Source of the DNA: Anaerolineae bacterium
Lineage (GTDB): Bacteria; Chloroflexota; Anaerolineae; Aggregatilineales; J027
DNA length: 64,000 bases
Reading direction: 5' to 3'
Assembly: GCA_019913005.1 (NCBI GenBank)
Contig: JAIOHL010000124.1
Span: 157,107 to 221,106, forward strand
Shown piece by piece: positions 28,600 through 63,233 of the stretch. Made by a program: the position numbers and the translations under genes. The stretch's first letter is position 1. The number at the start of each line of letters is the position of its first letter. Under the pieces are notes generated by a model that had not been told where the DNA came from, did no database searches, and saw only the letters and a program-made list of their open reading frames with translations.

Positions 28600-30129
28600 T
28601 TATCCTTTCAAGCCAGAGGAAGTAATCCCTTCCACAAAATATTTCTGGGCAAGGATAAATACCAAAATTGGCGGCAAGATCATCACGGCGGCCCCGGTCA
28701 GTACCAAGTTGGGTTTATCGGCGTGGATGTTGCTCAAGGTAATCAGCGATAGGGTTAGCACATGATTGTCTTTATTATTGGTACTGATAATCACCAGCGG
28801 CCAGATGAAGCTATTCCACGCATAGAGGAAGGTGAAAATGGCCTGTGTTGCGATGACCGGGGTGCTGAGGGGGACAAAAACGCGCCACAGAATTCGTAAA
28901 CGACTGCATCCATCCAGCAAGGCGGCCTCTTCGATTTCTTTGGGAAAAGTCACAAAGAACTGGCGCATTAGGAACGTGCCATAAGCTGAAAATATCCAAG
29001 GCACGATCAACGAGACAATGCGGTCATTCCATTCAATCGCCACCATGAGCTTGTACATCGGCACAATCAGCACGACAAAGGGGATCATGATGGAACCAAG
29101 ATAGGCAAGGAACAGCGTATCACGCCCTTTAAAATCAATCCGTGAAAAGGCATAACCCCCAAATACCGAGGTGACAATTTGCCCCAACACCACCGAGATT
29201 GTCACAAGGATGGTGTTGACGAGAGGACGGTCCAATTTCAGACTCTGGTCTTCACCTCGCCCCAAAACGGTATCGTAATTTCGCAATTGAAATTCGATCT
29301 TCTCTGCTGCTTTGACTGTCTCAGCCGGGCTGGTATAAACCACAAAATTGATGTCTTCGGGGTCAACGAAGGCTGTCACCGTTGAATTGGAAGCCATTAG
29401 CAATTCTTGGGCAGAATCCCCGCTGCGCAGTTCAAAAACCAGATACCCCCGATCATTACCTTCTTTATCTAAGAGAGTTTCTTCGCGTCCGGTGTTGACC
29501 AGCACCCATTCATCCCCTTTTAGCCGACTACCACTGTAGGCAAACAGGGGAACGGTAATGTCATAAAGGGTCAGGGTAGTGCTTTGGGCTTGTCCATCCA
29601 TCATCAGGTTATAGGCAGTAAATTCATTGGTACGATTGTTGCGGTCAGTTAATTCGACTTTAGTGTCTGCTCGGCTCAGGGTAATTTCAGCATCAGAGGT
29701 TTTATCTAGTTCGACTTCTGTACCATCGCTTGTAACCCAGCCAATCGGCAGGGCCAAAAAAACTTCGGGACGGCGGCGGGCATTGGCGTGGTTGTCTAAT
29801 TTGAGTTCGGCCTCAAGTGCGACACGGGTGGTTAAATACCCAAATTCAACTTTGTCGTCATCTCCACTGGCGATCACTGCATCCCGTTCATCCCCGTTGA
29901 CGTTAAAGGAATACAGTGGGACTTGAGTATCTTGAAAAGCTGTATCGAGTTGGGTAAAAGGCAGCAGGCGGCGTGGATTACTTGCAAAATCCTGATTATT
30001 TTTTAATGAGGCCAGAATCATGTAAATAAAGGGAAACAACATGATAAAGCCAAAAGTCAGCAGAAACAGGTGGATGCAGCCGCGTGACGCCCAAACTTTG
30101 AGTTCGTGGGTTGGTTCTTTTTGCATCAT
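28600..30129 (-). CDS. Carbohydrate ABC transporter permease, MalG type, with about 240-residue extracytoplasmic insert
   Basis: The 509-residue protein is almost twice the usual 275-300. TM1 (about 20-42) ends with SLKNNQDFASNPRRLLPF, the normal MalG start. The next membrane segment (NTILVTISVVLGQIVTSVFG) comes only after about residue 305, and the standard core with the EAA loop EEAALLDGCSRLRILWRVFV follows. The intervening stretch is hydrophilic and beta-rich with units such as VPLYSFNVNGDERDAVIAS and a later LVFELRSGDSAQELLMAS then TAFVDPED, resembling the insert of the second MalG permease in this window. It should project outward to the binding protein. AAGGAG precedes the start; partner permease 9 bases upstream. 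Confidence 0.88.
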   Translation of the reverse strand: MMQKEPTHELKVWASRGCIHLFLLTFGFIMLFPFIYMILASLKNNQDFASNPRRLLPFTQLDTAFQDTQVPLYSFNVNGDERDAVIASGDDDKVEFGYLTTRVALEAELKLDNHANARRRPEVFLALPIGWVTSDGTEVELDKTSDAEITLSRADTKVELTDRNNRTNEFTAYNLMMDGQAQSTTLTLYDITVPLFAYSGSRLKGDEWVLVNTGREETLLDKEGNDRGYLVFELRSGDSAQELLMASNSTVTAFVDPEDINFVVYTSPAETVKAAEKIEFQLRNYDTVLGRGEDQSLKLDRPLVNTILVTISVVLGQIVTSVFGGYAFSRIDFKGRDTLFLAYLGSIMIPFVVLIVPMYKLMVAIEWNDRIVSLIVPWIFSAYGTFLMRQFFVTFPKEIEEAALLDGCSRLRILWRVFVPLSTPVIATQAIFTFLYAWNSFIWPLVIISTNNKDNHVLTLSLITLSNIHADKPNLVLTGAAVMILPPILVFILAQKYFVEGITSSGLKG

Positions 30130-30138
30130 GTGGTCTCC

Positions 30139-31818
30139 TTAGGCTGTCTTCTCGCGGTTGAGCCGGAATTGGATGAGTGTTACCGCAAAAATGATGGCAA
30201 ACAACATCCATGCCAACGCCGAGGAATAGCCGAATAGAATATCTTGGAAACCTCTAAGATAGAGATTCAACACGGCTGTACGCACTTCATCTGGGAAAGC
30301 CGCGCCACGAAACAGCACAAAGGGTTCATTAAAGACCTGCAAGCCGTTGATGATGGTTGTCACAATCACAAAAAAGGTGGTTGGGCGAAGCTGTGGGAGT
30401 GTAATAAACCGGAATTGATTGAGTTGGTTTGCGCCATCCACTTGCGCCGCTTCATAGAGGTCGTTTGGAATCCCCTGAATACCCGCCAAAAACAACACCA
30501 TATTGAACCCCACCACCTGCCACGCCGCCATCAGTACCATCGAAAACATCATATAGCGCGTATCACTTAGCCAGCCGATTTCCGTATCAGCAAAAGATGT
30601 GCCAAAAGTAGCGTTCAAGAATCTCGTAAATTCAGTCAGGGCATAGTTGATAAAGCCGATACTGGAGCTATATAGAGCGATACGCCAAATCAGAGCAATC
30701 CCGACCACCGCCGCGACGGACGGCAAAAAGAATGCCGCGCGGTAAATCTTCATGCCGGGTATCTTGGAATTGAGAACAACCGCCAACACCAGCGCAGGAA
30801 TCGTTGCTAGGGGAATCAACATCAGGCAAAACATAAAGGTATTGCGAAGGCTGATCCAAAAATAGACATCTTTCGCCCCGATAACGGTTGTTTTGTCGCC
30901 GACTGTGACGGTTTCCAAGACTCGATAGCCTGCATCCAGCGCATCCTGAGCATATTGGTCGTCTTCGCCCTGCGTTGTAAATTGAAGCGAAAGGGCTTGG
31001 CTATAATTATCCAGTCCGATGAAATTCGGCTCTTTGACGCCAACGCTATCTGTAAAGCTGAGATAGAGTGACAGTAACAGTGGCCCCGCAAAAAAAATTA
31101 TAAAACCGATAATATTAGGCGACAACATCAACCACCCCTGCCACGCGGTACGCTGGTCGGTGGTTTCGCCAAAATACTCCCCTAACATCAGCATCCCATA
31201 AGCTACAACCCCAAAGACAATCATGAGCGCGGTGGCAACCCATGTCTCCAATTGGTCGTACTTACCCAAGATGTCGGCAGTCGCTTCCAAAATGCCACCA
31301 AAAAATAACAGGCCAATCAGCGCCAACATGCCAATTCCAACCGCTACCATCTCGATACGACTGCTAAGGAGCTTACTATTATTCAGGCGACCTGCAAGCC
31401 AATAGAGGGCATACGCAATGACTAGGCCCCACAACCATGCAGAATTTTCATACAGGGCGCCTGCGATGGCATCAAATCCCGCAAAGATACCCCAGATGTG
31501 CAGCAAATAAATGGACGAAGCAGTCATTCCCAAGAAATGCAGGGTGAGAGACAGAAAACGTCCATTTGGATTTTTCATAATCAGGAGGATAATCGCAGCA
31601 GCGGCGGCAACCGCAGGAACAAGCGCGATGCCCCCTACAAAATATTGAACGGTATCTCCTAAAGCATAAAACTCATCCAAATCAAAAACATTCAACGCCA
31701 GCAAAACACTCATCGCAATCGTTGCAATATTCAAAACAATACTGGCGGGGATTGCCAATGGAAGATTTTTCCGCTCCCTCATTGGGCTGATACTCTCGGT
31801 TTTTGTCAAAGTTGCCAT
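30139..31818 (-). CDS. Carbohydrate ABC transporter permease, MalF type, with extra N-terminal membrane domain
   Basis: The standard MalF/UgpA permease begins near residue 226 (WQGWLMLSPNIIGFIIFFAG, then LYLSFTDSVGVKEPNFIGLD) and contains the EAA loop DLYEAAQVDGANQLNQFRFI. Ahead of it lie about 220 residues with some six further hydrophobic segments (near 25-42, 58-80, 92-112, 127-144, 155-176, 192-214), a domain that ordinary relatives of about 300 residues lack. A modest insert (about 278-318) follows the first core helix. Total length is 559. It works with the MalG-type permease and binding protein of the same operon. No ATPase gene is nearby. Confidence 0.87.
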   Translation of the reverse strand: MATLTKTESISPMRERKNLPLAIPASIVLNIATIAMSVLLALNVFDLDEFYALGDTVQYFVGGIALVPAVAAAAAIILLIMKNPNGRFLSLTLHFLGMTASSIYLLHIWGIFAGFDAIAGALYENSAWLWGLVIAYALYWLAGRLNNSKLLSSRIEMVAVGIGMLALIGLLFFGGILEATADILGKYDQLETWVATALMIVFGVVAYGMLMLGEYFGETTDQRTAWQGWLMLSPNIIGFIIFFAGPLLLSLYLSFTDSVGVKEPNFIGLDNYSQALSLQFTTQGEDDQYAQDALDAGYRVLETVTVGDKTTVIGAKDVYFWISLRNTFMFCLMLIPLATIPALVLAVVLNSKIPGMKIYRAAFFLPSVAAVVGIALIWRIALYSSSIGFINYALTEFTRFLNATFGTSFADTEIGWLSDTRYMMFSMVLMAAWQVVGFNMVLFLAGIQGIPNDLYEAAQVDGANQLNQFRFITLPQLRPTTFFVIVTTIINGLQVFNEPFVLFRGAAFPDEVRTAVLNLYLRGFQDILFGYSSALAWMLFAIIFAVTLIQFRLNREKTA

Positions 31819-52261: not shown

Positions 52262-54694
52262 TTACGCACCGATACTCACCTTGACGTGAACCTCGGGGCG
52301 ATCTAAATTGAAGGGGACAACCATTCCCTCTAACGGTTGGCCTTCAACGGAAAGCTGCAATTGATTACCCGGTCCAACGCGCACTACTTCAATATGGTAG
52401 TTAACACCGCGATATTGCCGGATGGCAGTAAAGCCCTGCCAATCATCGGGGATGACGGGGGCAACTTGGAGTCCGGCAAAAGTGGGCCGGATACCCAAAA
52501 TCCATTGGGTGATAGCGACATAATTCCACGCCGCCGTCCCAGAAAGCCACGAATTTTTCGCTTCCCCATGCGTTGGAGCATCTTTACCCGCGATCATCTG
52601 GGCATAGACATACGGCTCACAGCGATGTACTTCGCTGATTTCTTCGCGGGCCGATGGATTGAGACGTGCGTAGTAATCAAACGCACGGTTGCCGTCGCCA
52701 GCCACCACCTCGGCAATCATGATCCAAGGGTTGGTGTGACAGAAAATCCCCGCGTTTTCTTTGTAGCCGGGGGGATAGGACGAAATCTCGCCCAAATGGA
52801 TATAGTAGCGCGAATAGGGTGGCTGCTGTAATACTATCCCATGTGGGGTCGCCAGATGCGCTTCCACAGAATCGAGGGCTTTACGCGCAAACCCATTTTG
52901 CAAGCCGACACCCGCCATGACGCATATACCCTGCGGTTCGATAAAAATCTGTCCCTCAGCACATTCAGTCGAACCAACTTTGTCACCGAAGTTATCATAG
53001 GCTCGCAAAAACCAATTGCCATCCCAACCCTGTTCATAAATGGTGGTTTCCATCTTGGCGGCGGCATCTTGATAACACTGGACGTCCACGCCACGCTGCT
53101 GGGCCATTTCAACCATTTCTTGGGCAGCAAGGATAAACAACCCTGCGATAAAGATAGATTCGGCAACCTTGCCATCTTTGTTGGTGGTTGTTTGGAACGA
53201 CTCACCGGGTTCTTCGGAGAAGGTATTGAGGTTCAGGCAGTCATTCCAATCCGCCCGTCCAATCAGTGGCAACTCATGTGGGCCAAGCCGATCCAGCGTA
53301 TATTGGATGCTGCGTTCTAGGTGTTCATAAAGTGGGGTTTCGCTGCCGGGTCGGTTATCATACGGCACAGATTCATCCAAGATAGCCCAATCGCCTGTCT
53401 CTTTGATATATGCCGCAACCCCCAGCACCAACCACAAAGGGTCATCATTGAAGTTGCCGCCAACCGCATCATTGCCACGTTTGGTGAGTGGCTGATATTG
53501 ATGATATGCCCCACCCGTAGGTAGTTGCGTAGCAGCAGTATCGAGAATGCGTTCCCGCGCACGGGCAGGCACCATATGAACAAAACCCAACAGGTCTTGG
53601 TTGGAATCGCGGAAGCCCATCCCTCGGCCAATCCCTGATTCATAGAAGGAGGCCGAGCGCGACATATTAAATGTCACCATACATTGATAGGCATTCCACA
53701 CATTGACCATGCGGTTGGTGTGAATATCGGGCGTATTGACTTGCAGCACTCCCGCTGTTTTCTCCCAATATAGCTGCAAATCGGTAAATGAACGCTCGAC
53801 CTGCACCGGATTGAGATATTTTTGGATGATGGGGCGAACAGTGGTTTTGTTAATCAGTCCCTGCCCATCAAATTTTTGATCTTTTGGATTCTCGTGATAA
53901 CCCAAGACAAAAATAATCTGGTGCGTTTCATAGGGTGCGAGGCTTACTTTGATATGATGTGACCCCAATGGCGCCCATCCATGCGCGATGGAATTAAACG
54001 ACTCGCCGCGTTCGACAGCCAGCGGAGTATCCCAATTGCGATAGGCCCCCAAAAAGGTGTCACGCCATGTATCAAAACCCGCCAACGACTCGGAACAGGC
54101 GAAGTAGGCAAAATGATTGCGCCGCTCTCGATACTCGGTCTTATGATAAATCGTACTGTCTTCGACCTCGACCTCGCCGATATTAAAATTGCGCTGGAAG
54201 TTGGTCATGTCGTCGTTGGCATCCCATAGGCAGAATTCCACCGACGAAAATACCGATATATCCGCCGGGGTACTACGATGGTTGGTCAATGTTAGCTGCC
54301 AAATTTCGAGGTTTTCACCCAATGGCACAAAATAGCGGGTGGAAGCCTCAATTCCATAATTCTTTGAGGCGATTCGCGTATAACCTAATCCATGATAACA
54401 GGCGTATTCATCCAGTGGAGTGCGGGTTGGTTGCCATGAGGGCGACCAATATTCCCCGGAGGTGTTATCCCGCAAATAGAGATAACGTCCACCCGTATCA
54501 AACGGCACATTGTTATAACGATAGCGGGTCAGACGCCGCAGTCGGGCATCCCGATAAAACGAATAACCACCCGCTGTATTCGAGATAATGCCAAAATAGG
54601 CTTCGTTCCCCAGATAATTAATCCATGGCAGGGGGGTATCGGGCCGAGTAATCACATATTCACAGGCGTCGTCATCAAAATAACCGTAGCGCAT
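52262..54694 (-). CDS. Cellobiose phosphorylase-like enzyme (GH94)
   Basis: The 810-residue protein matches cellobiose phosphorylase from its first residues (MRYGYFDDDACEYVITRPDT, TPLPWINYLGNEAYFGIIS) to the C-terminus, including GMGFRDSNQDLLGFVHM and the catalytic-acid segment RADWNDCLNLN near residue 480. It splits cellobiose with phosphate into glucose and glucose-1-phosphate, saving one ATP over hydrolysis. There is no signal peptide, so it works on imported sugar. It is the last gene of the operon and follows the GH1 gene after 9 bases. Confidence 0.93.
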   Translation of the reverse strand: MRYGYFDDDACEYVITRPDTPLPWINYLGNEAYFGIISNTAGGYSFYRDARLRRLTRYRYNNVPFDTGGRYLYLRDNTSGEYWSPSWQPTRTPLDEYACYHGLGYTRIASKNYGIEASTRYFVPLGENLEIWQLTLTNHRSTPADISVFSSVEFCLWDANDDMTNFQRNFNIGEVEVEDSTIYHKTEYRERRNHFAYFACSESLAGFDTWRDTFLGAYRNWDTPLAVERGESFNSIAHGWAPLGSHHIKVSLAPYETHQIIFVLGYHENPKDQKFDGQGLINKTTVRPIIQKYLNPVQVERSFTDLQLYWEKTAGVLQVNTPDIHTNRMVNVWNAYQCMVTFNMSRSASFYESGIGRGMGFRDSNQDLLGFVHMVPARARERILDTAATQLPTGGAYHQYQPLTKRGNDAVGGNFNDDPLWLVLGVAAYIKETGDWAILDESVPYDNRPGSETPLYEHLERSIQYTLDRLGPHELPLIGRADWNDCLNLNTFSEEPGESFQTTTNKDGKVAESIFIAGLFILAAQEMVEMAQQRGVDVQCYQDAAAKMETTIYEQGWDGNWFLRAYDNFGDKVGSTECAEGQIFIEPQGICVMAGVGLQNGFARKALDSVEAHLATPHGIVLQQPPYSRYYIHLGEISSYPPGYKENAGIFCHTNPWIMIAEVVAGDGNRAFDYYARLNPSAREEISEVHRCEPYVYAQMIAGKDAPTHGEAKNSWLSGTAAWNYVAITQWILGIRPTFAGLQVAPVIPDDWQGFTAIRQYRGVNYHIEVVRVGPGNQLQLSVEGQPLEGMVVPFNLDRPEVHVKVSIGA

Positions 54695-54703
54695 CCTGTC
54701 CCC

Positions 54704-56035
54704 CTAACCTGCTGTGACTTTTGCTATATAGTCTCGATACCATAAACCGCTTCGTTTCATCGTGCGTTTTAAGGTTTTGAAATCCACATGGATGATGCCG
54801 AAACGCCGATCATAGCCATAGGCCCATTCAAAATTGTCGAGCAGACTCCACACAAAATAGGCCGTCACTGGCGACCCTTGTTGGATGGCAACTTCAACAG
54901 CGGCGATATGGGTTTTGAAGTAATCGGTGCGTTCAGGGTCAGCAACCATGCCGTTTACCGGGTCAGGGTCGGGATAGGCCGCGCCATTTTCGGTTATCCA
55001 CAAGGCTTTTGGTGCATATTCCTGATGCAACCGCACCAACAGTTGAGTTAGGCTCCCCGGTGCAAGCTCCCAGCCCATTTGGGTGTAACCAGCACCCTCC
55101 GGCTTAATCTCATGGGTTTTGAGATAATGCCCGTTCGGATCATCTTTAATCACGTTGCGGGTATAGTAATTGATGCCGAGGAAATCTTGGGGCACAGCGG
55201 CCTGCTTGATCTCGGTTACATCAATGTCGTCCAACGCGCTACCATAAAGTTGGAGCATATCAGCAGGATATTCACCCTTAAAAACGGGGTCAATAAACCA
55301 GCGGTTCACAAAGCCATCATGCCGCCGGGCCGCTTGAACATCCGCCTCAGAGGACGTGGCTGGGTCAACCCAACTCACATTGAGTGTAATACCAGCAACA
55401 GAATTCGCTACATTTTGGCGAATAACCTGCATTGCAGCGCCATGCGCCAACAACATGTGGTGTGCAGCCAGCAGTCCCGCACGCGGATCGCTGTAGCCGG
55501 GGGCATGGGCAGCAAACGTATACCCAACAAACGCCGCTACAAATGGCTCGTTAATTGTGATCCAGTTTTTGACACGATCCCCCAAGCGGCGGGTCATTTG
55601 ATCGGTGTAATCGGAGAACCATCCCACAATTTCCCGATTGAGCCAACCCCCTCGGTTTTGCAGCGCTTGGGGTAAATCCCAGTGATAAAGGGTCGCGGCT
55701 GGAATAATCCCCGCGCTCAGAAGTTCATCCACCAACCGATCATAAAAATCAAGTCCGGCGGGGTTGGTTGTTCCTGTCCCGTTGGGGATGACACGCGGCC
55801 ACGAAACCGAGAAGCGATAGGCCTGTAGCCCCAGTTCCTTCATCAACGCGACATCTTCAACATAACGATGATAGTGATCGGTGGCAACATCCCCTGTGTC
55901 ACCGTTCATAACTTTGCCGGGAGTGTGCGAAAAACGAGTCCAGATACACTCGCCACGACCATCTTGGCGACTGGCTCCTTCAATCTGGTAACTCGCTGTC
56001 GCAGCACCCCACAGGAAATTCTTTGGAAATGCCAT
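54704..56035 (-). CDS. Beta-glucosidase (GH1)
   Basis: The ATG at 56035 is favoured because AGGAG lies five bases upstream; the ATG immediately before it (56038) is also possible. The 443-residue GH1 enzyme starts MAFPKNFLWGAATASYQIEG, with acid/base Glu163 (TINEPF), LGINYYTRN, nucleophile Glu349 (ITENGAAY) and the C-terminal DNFEWAYGYDRRFGI. It hydrolyses beta-1,4-linked glucose oligomers in the cytoplasm. Together with the GH94 phosphorylase it gives two intracellular routes for cello-oligosaccharides. Confidence 0.94.
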   Translation of the reverse strand: MAFPKNFLWGAATASYQIEGASRQDGRGECIWTRFSHTPGKVMNGDTGDVATDHYHRYVEDVALMKELGLQAYRFSVSWPRVIPNGTGTTNPAGLDFYDRLVDELLSAGIIPAATLYHWDLPQALQNRGGWLNREIVGWFSDYTDQMTRRLGDRVKNWITINEPFVAAFVGYTFAAHAPGYSDPRAGLLAAHHMLLAHGAAMQVIRQNVANSVAGITLNVSWVDPATSSEADVQAARRHDGFVNRWFIDPVFKGEYPADMLQLYGSALDDIDVTEIKQAAVPQDFLGINYYTRNVIKDDPNGHYLKTHEIKPEGAGYTQMGWELAPGSLTQLLVRLHQEYAPKALWITENGAAYPDPDPVNGMVADPERTDYFKTHIAAVEVAIQQGSPVTAYFVWSLLDNFEWAYGYDRRFGIIHVDFKTLKRTMKRSGLWYRDYIAKVTAG

Positions 56036-56066
56036 CATGGCTCCTGTAGGTGTAATCATCTAAAAA

Positions 56067-57950
56067 TCAGGGTTCGGCATACAGATTGCGGAAGTCATCC
56101 GATACAACCGCTGCCCCGAACCAAGCCAAACTTTGACCGAAATAGAATTGAGATGTACCGCTCCAATAACCCGATCCTAGTACGCTACCTGCATAACCAT
56201 ACAGCAGTTCACCCAAGCGATTTTCGAGGGCTGTATCCTCGGCAGCATGAGCAGCCACCAGCCACATAGCGACCATCAACTCATTTTGATAGTCCACGAC
56301 GGAGACGCCGTTCATGTCATACATTCGGGCGAACTGATCCGGGGGTAGGGTATTCAGAAATCGAGCGCTGCGTTTTGACCAATCACACGCCCGCGAATCG
56401 CCAAACCAGATGCAGTCCAAACCAATGCGCCAAGGCACACGGATGGCGTCGTAAGTCATCTCATATTTACATGTATCGAGGGGACGGCCTGTCGCATTGC
56501 AATAATCATAGGCCGGGCCACCTTCCGAAGTTGACCAGTCAGGAGCTAGACCCAAACGCGCACCATCCGTGACATAGAGTGTGCGATAGCCGTAGGTAAT
56601 CACAGGCTGCCAGCGGGTCGTACCCTGAAAATCGTCAAAAATGCGATACCACGCGGGCGAGAAATAGGAGAGATTTAGGATTTCTTGGCCTTCACCTGCC
56701 CAATCATCACCGGGGGTAAGATAACGACCATCGCCAACTTCATTTTCATAAATGGCATCAATCCAGCGGTTGGCATATTCACCGTAGGCCCGTTCAGGAT
56801 GCTGTGTCCATTCCGAACGCTCGACGCGCTTTTCCGCGAAGATCAAGGCAAGGGCAATATCTTCTTCTGCGTCAGTCGCAGAGCCGAAGCCAGTGATAGT
56901 ACCCGTGTTATCTATGCGCCAATTCAATAAGCCCGTCTCTGGATCGAGCATCATTTGATAGGCTGCGTCATAGATAGTATTGAAGGTGAGTGGGTCGTTC
57001 ATGAGCACGGCCATTAACATTCCATAGCCGATACCCTCACTGACAGATTGATAGCCCATGTTGGGGTCGAAAACGAGGCCCATGTTATTGCCACAGTTCT
57101 CGCCACAGAAGATGTAATTCTGCTTATAGCCTTCCCAACTGGCGCGTACCAATGCCGACCAATCAGCATCGTCCATTTCAAAACCGGCGGGTTCTTCTGG
57201 TAGGGCGGGTACAGGAATATCGGTGCGACCCACTTCAAAAAAGATGCCGCGTCCGAACACACTGGGATTTTGATAAGAGCTATCGCCCATATCCGCATTT
57301 GACCAGATTAGTTTCACATCGCGGTCTGCCGAACTTGCACCGTTTGCATGGGCCTGAAAGCCAATTTCTAAACCATGTGTCGGAGTAACGACGCCATTCA
57401 GGGCAACTTGGGCTTCAAACCCCCACCCATCATCGGTCTTAAATACGAAGGCTTGCACAGGCGCTCTGGAACCGTTGACTCCAGTCACGGTAATCGCCGC
57501 CGGGTCGGTATTGCCAATGTCGCCAGCATTGATGTTGACTTGAAAAATCGTATCGCTGTAGGTACGAGTGGCGAGTTCACCGGACAGATTGAGATAGAAT
57601 TCCAGTGAGTCTTCATTCCAATACTCACTGCCATGCTGACCTGTGATGATATTCTGGTCAGGCATGGTCATGGAAATATACAAATTGTCAGTGTCCGCTG
57701 CCACCGCTACGGTGAATGACCCGTTTTCAGCCGGGTTTGCCGAAGGACTTGGTCCGCGATCAACAACAGAAACGGGCACCCCCGCCCAATCTGATAGATC
57801 ACCATCCAACGTGATAGCAACCGGGAAGGGGATATAGAGAGCCTCACCGGGGATTTCAGCGGGCGCGAGGGGAGAACCCCCATCCTGCGCCCAACTGACA
57901 CCACCCACCATTAATCCAAGAAGTAAAAGAGCCGAAACCAGACGTTTCAT
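56067..57950 (-). CDS. Secreted GH8 endoglucanase with N-terminal CBM9-like domain
   Basis: The 627-residue product has a signal peptide (cleavage near Ala21, GVSWA then QDGG). Residues about 40-240 resemble a CBM9-type beta-sandwich (ITLDGDLSDWAGVPVSV, VAADTDNLYISMTM, WNEDSLEFYLNL, GWGFEAQVAL). Residues about 260-620 form the GH8 (alpha/alpha)6 barrel: QSVSEGIGYGMLMAVLMNDP with the general-acid Glu near 305, and ATDAEEDIALALIF near 358 with the acidic substrate-binding residues. It cuts cellulose or related beta-glucans outside the cell. The start overlaps the permease stop (TAATG), so enzyme and transporter are coupled. Confidence 0.87.
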   Translation of the reverse strand: MKRLVSALLLLGLMVGGVSWAQDGGSPLAPAEIPGEALYIPFPVAITLDGDLSDWAGVPVSVVDRGPSPSANPAENGSFTVAVAADTDNLYISMTMPDQNIITGQHGSEYWNEDSLEFYLNLSGELATRTYSDTIFQVNINAGDIGNTDPAAITVTGVNGSRAPVQAFVFKTDDGWGFEAQVALNGVVTPTHGLEIGFQAHANGASSADRDVKLIWSNADMGDSSYQNPSVFGRGIFFEVGRTDIPVPALPEEPAGFEMDDADWSALVRASWEGYKQNYIFCGENCGNNMGLVFDPNMGYQSVSEGIGYGMLMAVLMNDPLTFNTIYDAAYQMMLDPETGLLNWRIDNTGTITGFGSATDAEEDIALALIFAEKRVERSEWTQHPERAYGEYANRWIDAIYENEVGDGRYLTPGDDWAGEGQEILNLSYFSPAWYRIFDDFQGTTRWQPVITYGYRTLYVTDGARLGLAPDWSTSEGGPAYDYCNATGRPLDTCKYEMTYDAIRVPWRIGLDCIWFGDSRACDWSKRSARFLNTLPPDQFARMYDMNGVSVVDYQNELMVAMWLVAAHAAEDTALENRLGELLYGYAGSVLGSGYWSGTSQFYFGQSLAWFGAAVVSDDFRNLYAEP

Positions 57951-59434
57951 TATTTTTCGACCCCCGTAATTACCACACCTTGCATGAAGATGCGTTGCGC
58001 GAAGAAGAAGACCGCCAATGGAACGAGCATGGTCAATATCCCCGCCGCCATCATCAGATTTTGCTGCGAGGAGTAGATACGGGTGAAGTTTGCCAAGCCA
58101 ACCGCCAACACACTATTTTCCGAACCACCCCCCAAGTAGATCAGGGGTTGTTGGAAGTCATTCCACGAGAACAAGAAGTGGAACAGATAGACCGCGACGA
58201 GGGCTGGACGTGCCGCTGGAACAATGACGTACCACAAAATTTGGAAGGGGTTCGCCCCGTCCACACGGGCTGCCTCATCCATATCGAGTGGGATACCCAT
58301 CATATATTGGCGCAGCAAAAAGACATTGTAGGCATTGCTGAAGAAATGCGGCACGATGAGCGGGAAGAACGTCCCGATCCAGCCGAGTTTGTTGTACACA
58401 ATATAGGTTGGGATTTGCGTGACCTGTGGTGGCAGTACAATGGTCGAAAGCAAAATGATAAACAGAATATTGGCATAGGGGATGTTGAAGCGGGTAAACC
58501 CATAGGCCACCAATGTTGCCGAAACCATCGCCCCAAGCCCACTGACGAGGGCGATAAACAGAGTGTTGCCGAACAGCTTGAAATAATCAATGGCATCCAT
58601 CGCGTCGGTAAAGTTTTCGGGGTGGGGGTCGAGGTCCCACACTTTATCCAACCCGCGTACCCGCACATCCAATTCGAGGGGTTCAGCATCCGGATTTTCG
58701 GGGTCAATGAACTTTGCGCCGCGCCGTCCGGTTTCGAGTAAGGCCAGTTCACGGATTTCGCCATCTACTGGGACTTCATATAGAATGAGGTCTTGCTCTA
58801 AACGGATAATCTCGGCATCTGAGGTGGCAATGGGTAGTTCAAAAGGCGGCTCGCTAATTTCTTCGGGATTCATCCACAGTGTTCGATTGCCTTCTAATTC
58901 TTCGACTAACCCAAATTGGCCCCGCACATCTTCATAGGCAACGTTATAGAGGTTGACTTCTAGCCGTTCATTGACAAGGGCTGGTTTGAGGTCTTCGACA
59001 GCGATTTCAAGTTCAATAGGGGCTGCTTCAGGATTTTCGCTGTCAATAAACACGCTCACATTATCGCGGGTTTCGAGGAAGGCATATTTGTAAATTTTGC
59101 CTTGCTGAATGACTTCATAGACCGTCAGTTGCTGACCCTGATAGTCAAGCGTCTGCGGATGGCGATAGGTGTAGCGGAAAGTTTCAACTTCAGGACTTAC
59201 ATAATGATAGGTCTGGGGAGACATCGGAACAATGGGGTCATCAGGATCAGACAATTGCCCTTCGGTTTTGAGGGCGGTGCTGCCCATATAGACGAGCGGA
59301 CTGAGATAGACGGTTGCGATCCCAATCATAATCATCAGCAGCGTACCTGCGCCGATGACCTTATACACTTCGCGCTTCATATAGTTGCGCTGGTTGGCAT
59401 TATCGTTGCTTATAAATCCGCGTATACGTTCCAT
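57950..59434 (-). CDS. Cello-oligosaccharide ABC transporter permease, MalG type, with repeat-containing extracytoplasmic insert
   Basis: Of 494 residues, TM1 (about 28-50) and STALKTEGQLSDPDDPIVP are the normal MalG beginning. The next helix (NTLFIALVSGLGAMVSATLV) starts only near 290. The EAA loop is DMDEAARVDGANPFQILWYV. The 225-residue insert (about 60-285) contains a repeated unit: VYEVIQQGKIYKYAFLET then VFIDSENPEAAPIELE (about 105-143), and LYEVPVDGEIRELALLET then KFIDPENPDAEPLELD (about 218-256), with a weaker middle copy (LVEELEGN, LWMNPEEISEPPFELP, 176-201). It faces the outside where the binding protein docks. Partner permease lies 3 bases upstream. Confidence 0.88.
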   Translation of the reverse strand: MERIRGFISNDNANQRNYMKREVYKVIGAGTLLMIMIGIATVYLSPLVYMGSTALKTEGQLSDPDDPIVPMSPQTYHYVSPEVETFRYTYRHPQTLDYQGQQLTVYEVIQQGKIYKYAFLETRDNVSVFIDSENPEAAPIELEIAVEDLKPALVNERLEVNLYNVAYEDVRGQFGLVEELEGNRTLWMNPEEISEPPFELPIATSDAEIIRLEQDLILYEVPVDGEIRELALLETGRRGAKFIDPENPDAEPLELDVRVRGLDKVWDLDPHPENFTDAMDAIDYFKLFGNTLFIALVSGLGAMVSATLVAYGFTRFNIPYANILFIILLSTIVLPPQVTQIPTYIVYNKLGWIGTFFPLIVPHFFSNAYNVFLLRQYMMGIPLDMDEAARVDGANPFQILWYVIVPAARPALVAVYLFHFLFSWNDFQQPLIYLGGGSENSVLAVGLANFTRIYSSQQNLMMAAGILTMLVPLAVFFFAQRIFMQGVVITGVEK

Positions 59435-59437
59435 TAC

Positions 59438-60499
59438 CTATTTACCTCCCGCATAGAAGACCCAGCGGCTTGAACTACGGAAGACCAAAATCGTGACAAT
59501 CAACACCACAATAAACAGAATCCAAGCCAATGCGGAGGCATAGCCCATATCAAAAAACACATAGGCTTCTCGATAGAGATGGAGATTATAGAAATACATC
59601 GAAAGATCGTTGCCGCCAGCACCACGCGGGGTCAAGACATAGGCGACCACGAAATATTGGAAGGTGCCGATTAAGCCAATCACCAGATTATAGAGAATGA
59701 CAGGTGAGATCATCGGCAGGGTCACATTGCGGAAACGTGACCAATAGTTGGCTCCGTCTACTTGAGAGGCCTCATACAACTCGGTAGGCACATTTTGCAA
59801 CCCAGCAAGGAACATCAGCATCGTTGTCCCAATGCCCCATGTCCCAATAATCGTCAGGGCGGGCACGGCGAGGCTTGGTTCCTGTAACCACTCTGGACTC
59901 CCCAAGCCCAATGGGCTGAGTAGATAGACATTTAGCCAACCGTCTTGCCCCCGCAAAAATTGCTGGAACACCGTAGCAGCCACAACAGATGGGATAACAC
60001 TGGGTAGGTAATAAATGGTGCGGAACAACCTGACCCCCGGCACCTTAGTATTGGTGAGCAGGGCGAAAAACAACGCTAGACCCAGATTGACCGGCAGTGA
60101 GATCACCGCAAAAGTGAGGGTGACTTGGATCGCCTTCCAAACTTCATGATCGCGTGATCCAAAATGGAGTGAAGCAATCCTAAAAGCCTCGGTATAGCCC
60201 GATTTAAAGGTCACTTCGTCCGCATCAGACCGAATAACCTGTAATGAAAATATTTTTTCATAGTTATCCGTGTCAATAAATTTGGTCTCGCCGGGTCGTT
60301 GGATGTTGTAGTCCGTCATAGAAAGATAGAGCGAGGCGATCATTGGCCCAAGCAGGAACAGAAAAAAGCCAATAATCCATGGGATTAAGAAAAAATATCC
60401 CCAAAGAATCTGCGCACGGCGCGGTGTAAGTTTGATACGTTTTTCTTCTACAGCGGGTGCTTGCACTTGAGTGGTAGGGGCAGATTGCACGGTTGCCAT
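59438..60499 (-). CDS. Cello-oligosaccharide ABC transporter permease, MalF type
   Basis: The ATG at 60499 has AAAGGA upstream and yields 353 residues; a longer frame to 60526 is unlikely. Six membrane segments of a MalF/UgpA permease are seen, beginning ILWGYFFLIPWIIGFFLFLL, with the EAA loop ELYEASQVDGANYWSRFRNV. A short insert (about 95-130) with FSLQVIRSDADEVTFKSGY follows the first core helix, comparable to the FSLQ/LSLQ insert of the other MalF protein here. It corresponds in operon position to CebF of Streptomyces. Confidence 0.9.
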   Translation of the reverse strand: MATVQSAPTTQVQAPAVEEKRIKLTPRRAQILWGYFFLIPWIIGFFLFLLGPMIASLYLSMTDYNIQRPGETKFIDTDNYEKIFSLQVIRSDADEVTFKSGYTEAFRIASLHFGSRDHEVWKAIQVTLTFAVISLPVNLGLALFFALLTNTKVPGVRLFRTIYYLPSVIPSVVAATVFQQFLRGQDGWLNVYLLSPLGLGSPEWLQEPSLAVPALTIIGTWGIGTTMLMFLAGLQNVPTELYEASQVDGANYWSRFRNVTLPMISPVILYNLVIGLIGTFQYFVVAYVLTPRGAGGNDLSMYFYNLHLYREAYVFFDMGYASALAWILFIVVLIVTILVFRSSSRWVFYAGGK

Positions 60500-60540
60500 T
60501 GGAAAATCCTTTATCCTCCTAAACAATGATTGGGTTGACC

Positions 60541-60596: not shown

Positions 60597-62000
60597 TTAT
60601 TCGGCAGCGGCAGCTTCGTCGAAGATGCCTTGAACTTCGGCGTTAAGCGCGTCTAAACCAGCATCCGTATCTACCGCTGGATCGGAACGAACGACCTGCC
60701 AAAAGGCTTCAAGGGCGTCCCAAGCGCGAGCAAAATTGGGCATATACCCTTCGTGATTGGGGGCATCGAGATATTCCAACGCGCCATAAACCACGTCGAG
60801 GTTCAGGAAGGGGAAGGCTTCTAGCCAGTAGGATTCCCAATCGCTGCGACCAGACAAACGAGCGGGCATACAACCGTAAACTTGGCACAGTTTGAGGGAC
60901 TGTTCAGGAGCGGTGAGCCACTTCAGAACTTCCCAAGCCGCATCTTTGTTTTCAAAACCTTCCATCATGGCGAAGGTGTCAGCATGAACAGCCGCTGTAA
61001 TCTTGCCATTGGGGGCGACTGGCACAGGATAGACATTCCAGCTAGCAGTGAAGTTGCCATCATCCATCGCGGACTTGATGCCACCAAACAGCCATGTGTG
61101 GCTGCGGCCCATCGCAATACGGTTGGAGGTGAAGGGGTTGGTTACGCCTTCGCCAATCGCGCCTTCAGCGTCGGCATTGGGGATGAAGTTGTCAACAAAG
61201 ATACCGTCATGGAAGAACTTGACGGCCTGACGGAAAGCATCTTGATTGAACGTAGCGGTGACGGTGCCGTCTTCACCAATTTGAACACCGGCGTCATCGG
61301 GGCTGAAGCCGATGGTGCTGGCGCGGAAGTTGGTCCAGAACGGATAGTAGCCATAAACTTCGATAGCGGCTGGATCAAAGCCTTCTTCACCATTGTAGAC
61401 ACCATTGGCGTCCTGAGTGACGGCCATCGCGGTGGCTTTTAGGTCTTCATAGGTCCAAGCACCGTATTCGGTGGGGGGCAGCTCGACTTCAGCTTCTTCA
61501 AATATCGTTTCGTTCACATAAATGAACGAGGGATAGAACCCTAATGGCATGGCAATTTGACGACCACTTAGTTCAAACAGGCCAAAAGTTGCAGCGTCAA
61601 AGTCATCCAGATTCAGTTCTTCAGCATCCTGTTCAATATAGGCAGAAATGTCGGCCCACAGGTCACTAACTTCATACACGGTACGGACACCGGCTGGCCC
61701 CACGATAGCGGGGACATCACCACCGGAGACCTGCGTCAGCAGTTCGTCGCGGGCGGTTTCGTTGTCATGGAATTCGAATTCGATCTTGATGTCTTCGTGC
61801 GCGGCATTCCATTCATCAGCCAACGCAACCTGAGCGGCCTGTTGTTCGGGCAGATAGCCAGTACCAACGCCGACGAAAATCCGGATGGTCACCGGGTCTT
61901 GAGCTTTGGCAGGCTTGGCATCGTTACTGGGCAGCAACGCCACAACCAGCAGGGCAACAATTACTAATACGGGGAGGCCCCTCTTCAAAAACTTGGACAT
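60597..62000 (-). CDS. Cello-oligosaccharide ABC transporter substrate-binding protein
   Basis: The ATG at 62000 follows AAGGAGCT and gives 467 residues with a signal peptide (LPVLVIVALLVVALL, cleavage near Ala33, KPAKA then QDPVTI). The longer frame to 62129 would begin inside the operator palindrome. Family-1 features are QAAQVALADEWNAAHEDIKI, GPAGVRTVYEVSDLWADI, SFIYVNETIFEEAEVELPP, MGRSHTWLFGG and AAWEVLKWLTAPEQSLKL. A CebR-type operator lies 112 bases upstream. By context it binds cellobiose or longer cello-oligosaccharides, like CebE; the residues for sugar binding cannot be assigned here. Confidence 0.88.
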   Translation of the reverse strand: MSKFLKRGLPVLVIVALLVVALLPSNDAKPAKAQDPVTIRIFVGVGTGYLPEQQAAQVALADEWNAAHEDIKIEFEFHDNETARDELLTQVSGGDVPAIVGPAGVRTVYEVSDLWADISAYIEQDAEELNLDDFDAATFGLFELSGRQIAMPLGFYPSFIYVNETIFEEAEVELPPTEYGAWTYEDLKATAMAVTQDANGVYNGEEGFDPAAIEVYGYYPFWTNFRASTIGFSPDDAGVQIGEDGTVTATFNQDAFRQAVKFFHDGIFVDNFIPNADAEGAIGEGVTNPFTSNRIAMGRSHTWLFGGIKSAMDDGNFTASWNVYPVPVAPNGKITAAVHADTFAMMEGFENKDAAWEVLKWLTAPEQSLKLCQVYGCMPARLSGRSDWESYWLEAFPFLNLDVVYGALEYLDAPNHEGYMPNFARAWDALEAFWQVVRSDPAVDTDAGLDALNAEVQGIFDEAAAAE

Positions 62001-62107
62001 GACATTTAGCTCCTTATAGGCTCTAGCGAAATTTTTAAGGCCAAATACGAACTGATTAGGTTTCATTTCTGATTCTGCGGAATACCCTCCTTTAAAAATT
62101 CTCCTAA

Positions 62108-62129
62108 ATGTTGGGAGCGCTCCCAACAT
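62108..62129. promoter_or_regulatory. CebR-type operator upstream of the cello-oligosaccharide operon
   Basis: ATGTTGGGAGCGCTCCCAAC-AT is a perfect 22-bp palindrome containing TGGGAGCGCTCCCA (62112-62125), the 14-bp site known for the Streptomyces cellobiose repressor CebR. It sits between the LacI gene and the binding-protein gene. Confidence 0.88.
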
Positions 62130-62141
62130 CGCCTAACAAAA

Positions 62142-63176
62142 TTAGGTCGACTGACGGACGATCAATTTCACCGGGAGCATTTGCTGAAATGGCGGCTCAA
62201 CTCTGCCCTCTAGCAGGTCAATCAAGCCACGCACCGCATAATCTCCTAGTTGGGTTATTGGCTGTTGAACAGTAGTTAACTGGGGTTCAGTGGTACGGGA
62301 AATCCCCATATCATCAAAACCACCGATGGCAATATCTTCTGGAATACGCAGGCCCGCTTCTTTAATGGCCCGCATCGCGCTGGCAGCCATTACATCATTG
62401 GCGGCAAACACCGCGTCTATCCGGTGATGCAGCAGCAGTTTCATACCTGTATAGCCGCTCGCATCCGAATAATCCCCAGCCGGGGTAATGAGGCGCATAT
62501 CTATAGGAATATCGGCATGTTGCAGGGCGCTAATATATCCTTGCAAACGATCATGGCTCGATGTCAGACCTGACCGACCTGTGATCATCCCGATACGCCG
62601 CCGACCCTGTTTGATAAGATGCTCAACCATCATACGAGCACCCTGCTCATTCTCCGAATCCACATAGCTACTTTGTTCATAAGCGGTAAAAGGCCGGCCT
62701 ATGATGATGTAGGGTTTGCCCCTTTGATCAAGGCGTTTGATGAATGAGGCATTTACGGTAGCGGATGCAACAATCATGCCATCCGCAAGACGGTCATTGA
62801 ACACCTGATCGTAGAAAGCACTCTCATCTACATTGGCACTCGTCAGCCATAGGATGGGGCTGTAATTCACAGAATTGGCGGCGGTAGTAATGCCTTGCAA
62901 CAGGATGGAAAAAAATGGGTCTGTAAACAGGTCGCTGACAATGTGAGGAATGAGAATTCCAATGATGTTGGCACGTTGGGAGGCTAGGGCGCGTGCGGCG
63001 GGATGGGGTTTGAAATTATAGCGTTCAATAATTTCCAACACCTTGCGGCGAGTGATTTCACTGACATTGGGATGGTGATTGACCACCCTTGAAACGGTTG
63101 AACGGGAAACACCACTGAGGCGTGCAATGTCCTCTAGGTTTAAATCGGTGATTCCGTTGTCAAAATCAGTGCCCAT
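62142..63176 (-). CDS. LacI-family repressor, CebR-like
   Basis: The start is the ATG at 63176 (an upstream TTG in frame is not needed), giving 344 residues. The DNA-binding domain is LEDIARLSGVSRSTVSRVVN with hinge KPHPAARALASQRAN; the effector core shows IIGILIPHIVSDLFTDPFFS, GRRRIGMITGRSG, VFAANDVMAASAMRA and IGGFDDMGISRTTEPQLTTV. Two TGGGAGCGCTCCCA sites flank the gene, one over its own promoter and one before the downstream operon, so it likely represses both. In Streptomyces CebR is released by cellobiose or cello-oligosaccharides; the same effector is inferred here. Confidence 0.9.
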   Translation of the reverse strand: MGTDFDNGITDLNLEDIARLSGVSRSTVSRVVNHHPNVSEITRRKVLEIIERYNFKPHPAARALASQRANIIGILIPHIVSDLFTDPFFSILLQGITTAANSVNYSPILWLTSANVDESAFYDQVFNDRLADGMIVASATVNASFIKRLDQRGKPYIIIGRPFTAYEQSSYVDSENEQGARMMVEHLIKQGRRRIGMITGRSGLTSSHDRLQGYISALQHADIPIDMRLITPAGDYSDASGYTGMKLLLHHRIDAVFAANDVMAASAMRAIKEAGLRIPEDIAIGGFDDMGISRTTEPQLTTVQQPITQLGDYAVRGLIDLLEGRVEPPFQQMLPVKLIVRQST

Positions 63177-63233
63177 AACAGTTCGCGCCAAGAAAAATTA
63201 GTTAAATGCCGCTCCCAAATTGAATAAATATTG

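Follow-up and report, generated by a model that had tools for sequence, protein, structure and literature searches.

The locus and its MalG-type permease

The window, by which we mean the whole 64,000-nucleotide stretch that was analysed, contains an operon in the order LacI regulator, binding protein, MalF-type permease, MalG-type permease, CBM9-GH8 enzyme, GH1 enzyme and GH94 phosphorylase (Table 1). The MalG-type permease is, its repeat insert aside, the ordinary MalG-type half of a CUT1 importer. PF00528 (BPD_transp_1) covers residues 309-486 only and passes with 53.5 bits against a curated cut-off of 26.4, and structural superposition shows a MalG-like core fold, both on AlgM2 (4tqv_B; Z 22.1, rmsd 2.9 over 270) and on MalG itself (3puv_G; Z 21.8, rmsd 3.0 over 266); the MalF-type partner and binding protein genes in the same operon speak for CUT1 membership. 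No gene for a MalK-type ATPase was found within the permease's gene run, and a shared ATPase of this type encoded elsewhere is common in such bacteria. The GH8-GH1-GH94 enzyme set, which we take to suit uptake of beta-1,4-gluco-oligosaccharides, suggests that these are probably the importer's substrate.

Table 1. Features of the window, with coordinates in the window and the evidence or remark for each
Feature	Coordinates	Strand	Evidence or remark
LacI-type regulator	62142..63191	(-)	neighbourhood reading
Binding protein, FVGxGxG N-terminal motif subfamily, no lipobox	60597..62129	(-)	likely start near 62000
MalF-type partner permease	59438..60526	(-)	P2-equivalent loop ~30 residues longer than in ordinary partners
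MalG-type permease with insert	57950..59434	(-)	494 aa, ATG start; PF00528 and MalG-like core fold
TM1, residues ~26-50	59285..59359	(-)	hydropathy; AF2 helix 12-54
Extracytoplasmic insert, residues ~71-270	58625..59224	(-)	hydropathy, AF2, loop measurement
Unit copy 1, residues 105-152	58979..59122	(-)	58.7 bits, unit profile A3 (copy included in A3); shuffle test
Unit copy 2 (divergent), residues ~162-208	58811..58951	(-)	8.8 bits, profile lacking copy 2
Unit copy 3, residues 218-275, adjoins TM2	58610..58783	(-)	92.1 bits (copy included in profile A3); AF2
TM2-TM6 core and EAA motif, residues ~284-493	57956..58585	(-)	Pfam, AF2, superposition
Secreted CBM9-GH8 enzyme	56067..57950	(-)	domain search
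GH1 enzyme	54704..56059	(-)	neighbourhood reading
GH94 phosphorylase	52262..54694	(-)	neighbourhood reading
Second MalG-type permease, related multi-unit insert (family B)	28600..30129	(-)	loop measurement, profile comparison

Permeases of the MalG, AlgM2 and SugB type have the whole transmembrane core, PF00528 and the EAA motif in common with this protein but a short first outer loop, where the window permease carries repeated modules that add some 200 residues. With the conserved core as reference, its TM1-TM2 loop is 238 residues long, with TM2 starting at about 284, whereas the loop is 32-54 residues in most measured permeases of the same genome; the insert of 225 residues claimed in an earlier note made from the sequence alone is therefore real and large, but its net size is closer to 200. 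The insert lies outside the cytoplasm, as that note had also held, since the bias of charges, the position of the EAA motif, three helices further on, and the superposition on solved permeases including MalG all agree, and a cytoplasmic placement was not borne out. A matched cysteine pair (CxG ... GEFxC) occurs within the single unit of four relatives (L077, L078, L081 and L084) and suggests an intramodule disulfide; the pair also suits an outer location of the module. The dN/dS of the insert is 0.04-0.12 across all copies, with 0.02-0.03 for TM2-6, and indicates purifying selection on the insert.

The obvious comparison is with MalF of the enteric maltose importer. In E. coli the P2 region of MalF runs from residue 91 to 271, and a periplasmic stretch of MalG, residues 70-72, makes contact with MalE (PMC3150292). 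MalF aligns to the permease model from residue 56 on (superposition on 9nxc_H), and the insert indeed lies at the MalG counterpart of the P2 position: each is a large extracytoplasmic addition after the pseudo-equivalent helix. The location is not that of P2 itself, as P2 belongs to the MalF-type subunit and the insert to the MalG-type subunit. Moreover, P2 is described as a single Ig-like domain, whereas the insert is made of repeated small units that are predicted to be SH3-like, and no sequence relation between the two was seen.

Repeat units and their predicted fold

Read from its sequence, the insert is three tandem copies of one small unit, of which the middle one is weak. Copies 1 and 3 give an ungapped alignment of 49 columns, with a BLOSUM62 score of 106 against a mean of 23.5 and a maximum of 52 in 5,000 shuffles, which bears out the alignment from which the repeats had originally been proposed. 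Copy 2 compared with copy 1 alone is marginal (score 40, equalled by 29 of 5,000 shuffles); the same copy in the orthologues L036-L038 reaches 19.2, 25.8 and 25.3 bits with a unit profile from which the copy-2 sequence had been left out, and the weaker third copy proposed to lie between the other two is thus upheld. The top score among 3,247 reversed ORFs was 3.7 bits, obtained with an iterated profile that is closely related to the unit profile and that, as it contains copy-2 rows, is not independent proof of copy 2. Copy 3 is the counterpart of the single unit present in most relatives. Every one of the five genomes of the genus has the three-copy form, as do three other genera, and its presence in eight genomes rules out an assembly artefact.

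Neither Pfam nor NCBIfam gave a match above the curated cut-off over the insert, and a PDB profile search with the unit returned nothing significant, the best match being a carbohydrate-binding module (2w3j, E 0.61). In these searches the insert matched no described domain; when the units were compared with domain libraries the single match was to TRAM, with an E-value of 0.0019, in one of 18 members. The open-access literature that we searched yielded no description of a related insert in a MalG-type permease.

The full-length AF2 model has a mean pLDDT of 86, with copies 1 and 3 mostly at about 90 or better and copy 2 below 50, so that no structural reading is offered for copy 2. According to the predicted secondary structure, copies 1 and 3 form small five-stranded barrels on the outer face, in which a turn precedes the final strand, and copy 3 modelled alone (mean pLDDT 75) likewise has five strands, the fifth following a short helical turn. 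This is the arrangement of SH3-like barrels such as Tudor domains, the C-terminal domain of retroviral integrases and the N-terminal SH3 of myosin, although no E-value was significant and neither a sequence relation nor a common function has been shown. Among the folds listed by searches with the units, most were SH3-like barrels, all of them weak matches (Z up to 5.2, Foldseek E no lower than 0.25), values which support a fold class and not a relationship. The unit, a module of about 60-70 residues, is accordingly predicted to be a small SH3-like barrel.

Spread and amplification of the module

The idea that the insert is peculiar to this permease has to be given up: permeases with a single copy are found widely, and the repeats arose by later amplification. 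The survey of Chloroflexota that the earlier note had called for found matches to the insert in 98 of the 154 genomes of the order and, with the unit profile, in at least 36 of a phylum-wide sample of 400 genomes. Truepera, Glycomyces and Spirochaetaceae came to light as further carriers when named genomes were scanned. In the phylum to which Glycomyces belongs (Actinomycetota) the unit profile matched at least 4 of 246 genomes, and in that of a Spirochaetaceae genome at least 5 of 198; no relative was found in the viral contigs searched. The module is a family trait, commonly present as one copy in a permease clade that is centred on Chloroflexota and scattered over other phyla.

A quick tree was built from the transmembrane core without the insert, with no-module rows chosen by similarity to the family of the 57950-59434 permease (family A), a biased sampling; in it all 87 of the module-bearing rows fall in one clade (SH-aLRT 98). 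The window permease belongs to a multi-unit clade of eight rows (support 99) whose sister is the single-unit permease L061 (91). Multi-unit forms also occur elsewhere in the tree, outside this clade: L065 has three regular units, L048 and L051 have two. Amplification has therefore occurred at least twice. The ancestral form has one module adjoining TM2, and sequence and tree together show that in the window lineage this single module was duplicated to three. The longest form is in the genome G013, whose permease of ~784 residues has five units by profile and about seven by eye. The MalF-type partner in G013 also seems to carry units, as its loop is ~210 residues longer than those of close relatives and contains a unit-like stretch that scores 11.5 bits.

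The second permease of the window has a TM1-TM2 loop of ~260 residues, and its relatives, family B, are present in 39 of 151 genomes, mostly as proteins of ~415 residues with two units. The profile built from the TM2-proximal unit of these relatives matches that of the family A unit (55 columns, hhalign probability 97.7%, E 2e-12), a match to which a short linker before TM2, present in both profiles, contributes. A quick tree places families A and B apart, but their union in a single clade is compatible with an AU test (p 0.465).

A proposed docking role and its alternatives

At 18 of 20 module loci, vs none of 30 no-module loci, the binding protein bears FVGLGxG or a near variant of this motif; the motif was picked for this comparison after these binding proteins had been inspected. 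As co-inheritance alone could yield such numbers, a physical pairing is supported and not proven. Within the window the neighbours of the family A permease are GH8-GH1-GH94 and those of the family B permease are GH42-GH31, and one enzyme is consequently not the common partner. Docking is the best of the roles proposed, given that the module keeps company with one binding-protein subfamily but with varying enzymes, and we give roughly an even chance to the module being a binding-protein docking module, the MalG-side counterpart of MalF P2. It would then contribute to the surface on which the cognate binding protein docks and, much like P2 but from the other subunit, would cap or steer that protein on the membrane complex; extra copies might extend the surface outward. 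The equivalence of the outer loop to that of P2, the purifying selection and the unit-like stretch in the G013 MalF-type partner tell in favour of docking. Against it, plain co-inheritance with the binding-protein subfamily may suffice, family B modules pair with a binding protein that does not have the motif, and most CUT1 systems need no such module. Nor is there any visible increase in binding-protein size where the permease has several units.

A clear lipobox was seen in none of the 30 binding-protein frames of the window's genome (L222-L251), so the organism seems not to lipid-anchor these proteins. Retention of unanchored binding proteins by the module was ruled out as a specific explanation, as the lipobox is missing with or without an adjoining module permease; among relatives, unit copy number does not track the lipobox.

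The freedom with which copy number varies (1, 2, 3 and about 7) would be expected if the units were a spacer or stalk that holds something off the membrane or shields the permease, with only their number mattering, and the enlargement of both module families in the window's genus and the greater divergence of the units far from TM2 could be read in the same way. We nevertheless think a spacer unlikely, as the low dN/dS in all copies and the strong conservation of the TM2-proximal unit in single-copy forms both suggest that more than length is being maintained.

Another possibility is a tether: the extra units would hold the secreted CBM9-GH8 enzyme close to the importer, and oligosaccharides would thereby be set free next to the binding protein. 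Indeed, the gene for this enzyme directly follows the permease gene in every member of the multi-unit clade that was examined (window, L141-L147), and the single-unit sister has none within ~6 kb. However, the association is that of one clade and hence one event, a GH8-like gene is also near the single-unit permease L079, and the multi-unit permeases L065, L048 and L051 gave no GH8 match, all of which makes tethering quite improbable. A carbohydrate-binding array, in which the units would bind glucan chains, is brought to mind by an insert that belongs to a sugar importer, that has a CBM9 enzyme for a neighbour and whose top, non-significant PDB profile match is to a carbohydrate-binding module. 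Yet there is no significant match to CBM families, and the WEGNWR motif of the single units is missing from the window permease's copies; we regard glucan binding as very unlikely.

Returning to docking, the way in which type I importers recognise their binding protein at the membrane has been detailed for few systems. What is described here is not a new kind of system; it is a real module, in none of the libraries searched, that occurs fairly widely in transporters of a known kind and has been amplified at this locus. For annotators it is a domain missing from Pfam and NCBIfam. As it is on the MalG side, pseudo-symmetric to P2, occurs in several phyla and has been amplified in tandem, it provides natural length variants for direct tests of docking, spacing and enzyme tethering. 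It is tempting to speculate, though we are doubtful, that outer loops of both permease subunits may bear a barrel array of variable number in which copy number tunes capture of the binding protein or of a partner enzyme, a docking array of a kind not described for ABC importers.

The MalF-type partners of the window's two module permeases, at 59438-60526 and 30139-31818 (-), have enlarged P2-equivalent loops of similar build (SLQF...GY...GxxDxxFW), and a loop of this type is present in L061 too. The P2-equivalent segment of the G013 partner (L147, ORF start near 1668 (+)) is 287 residues long as compared with ~77, and includes a low-complexity acidic tract.
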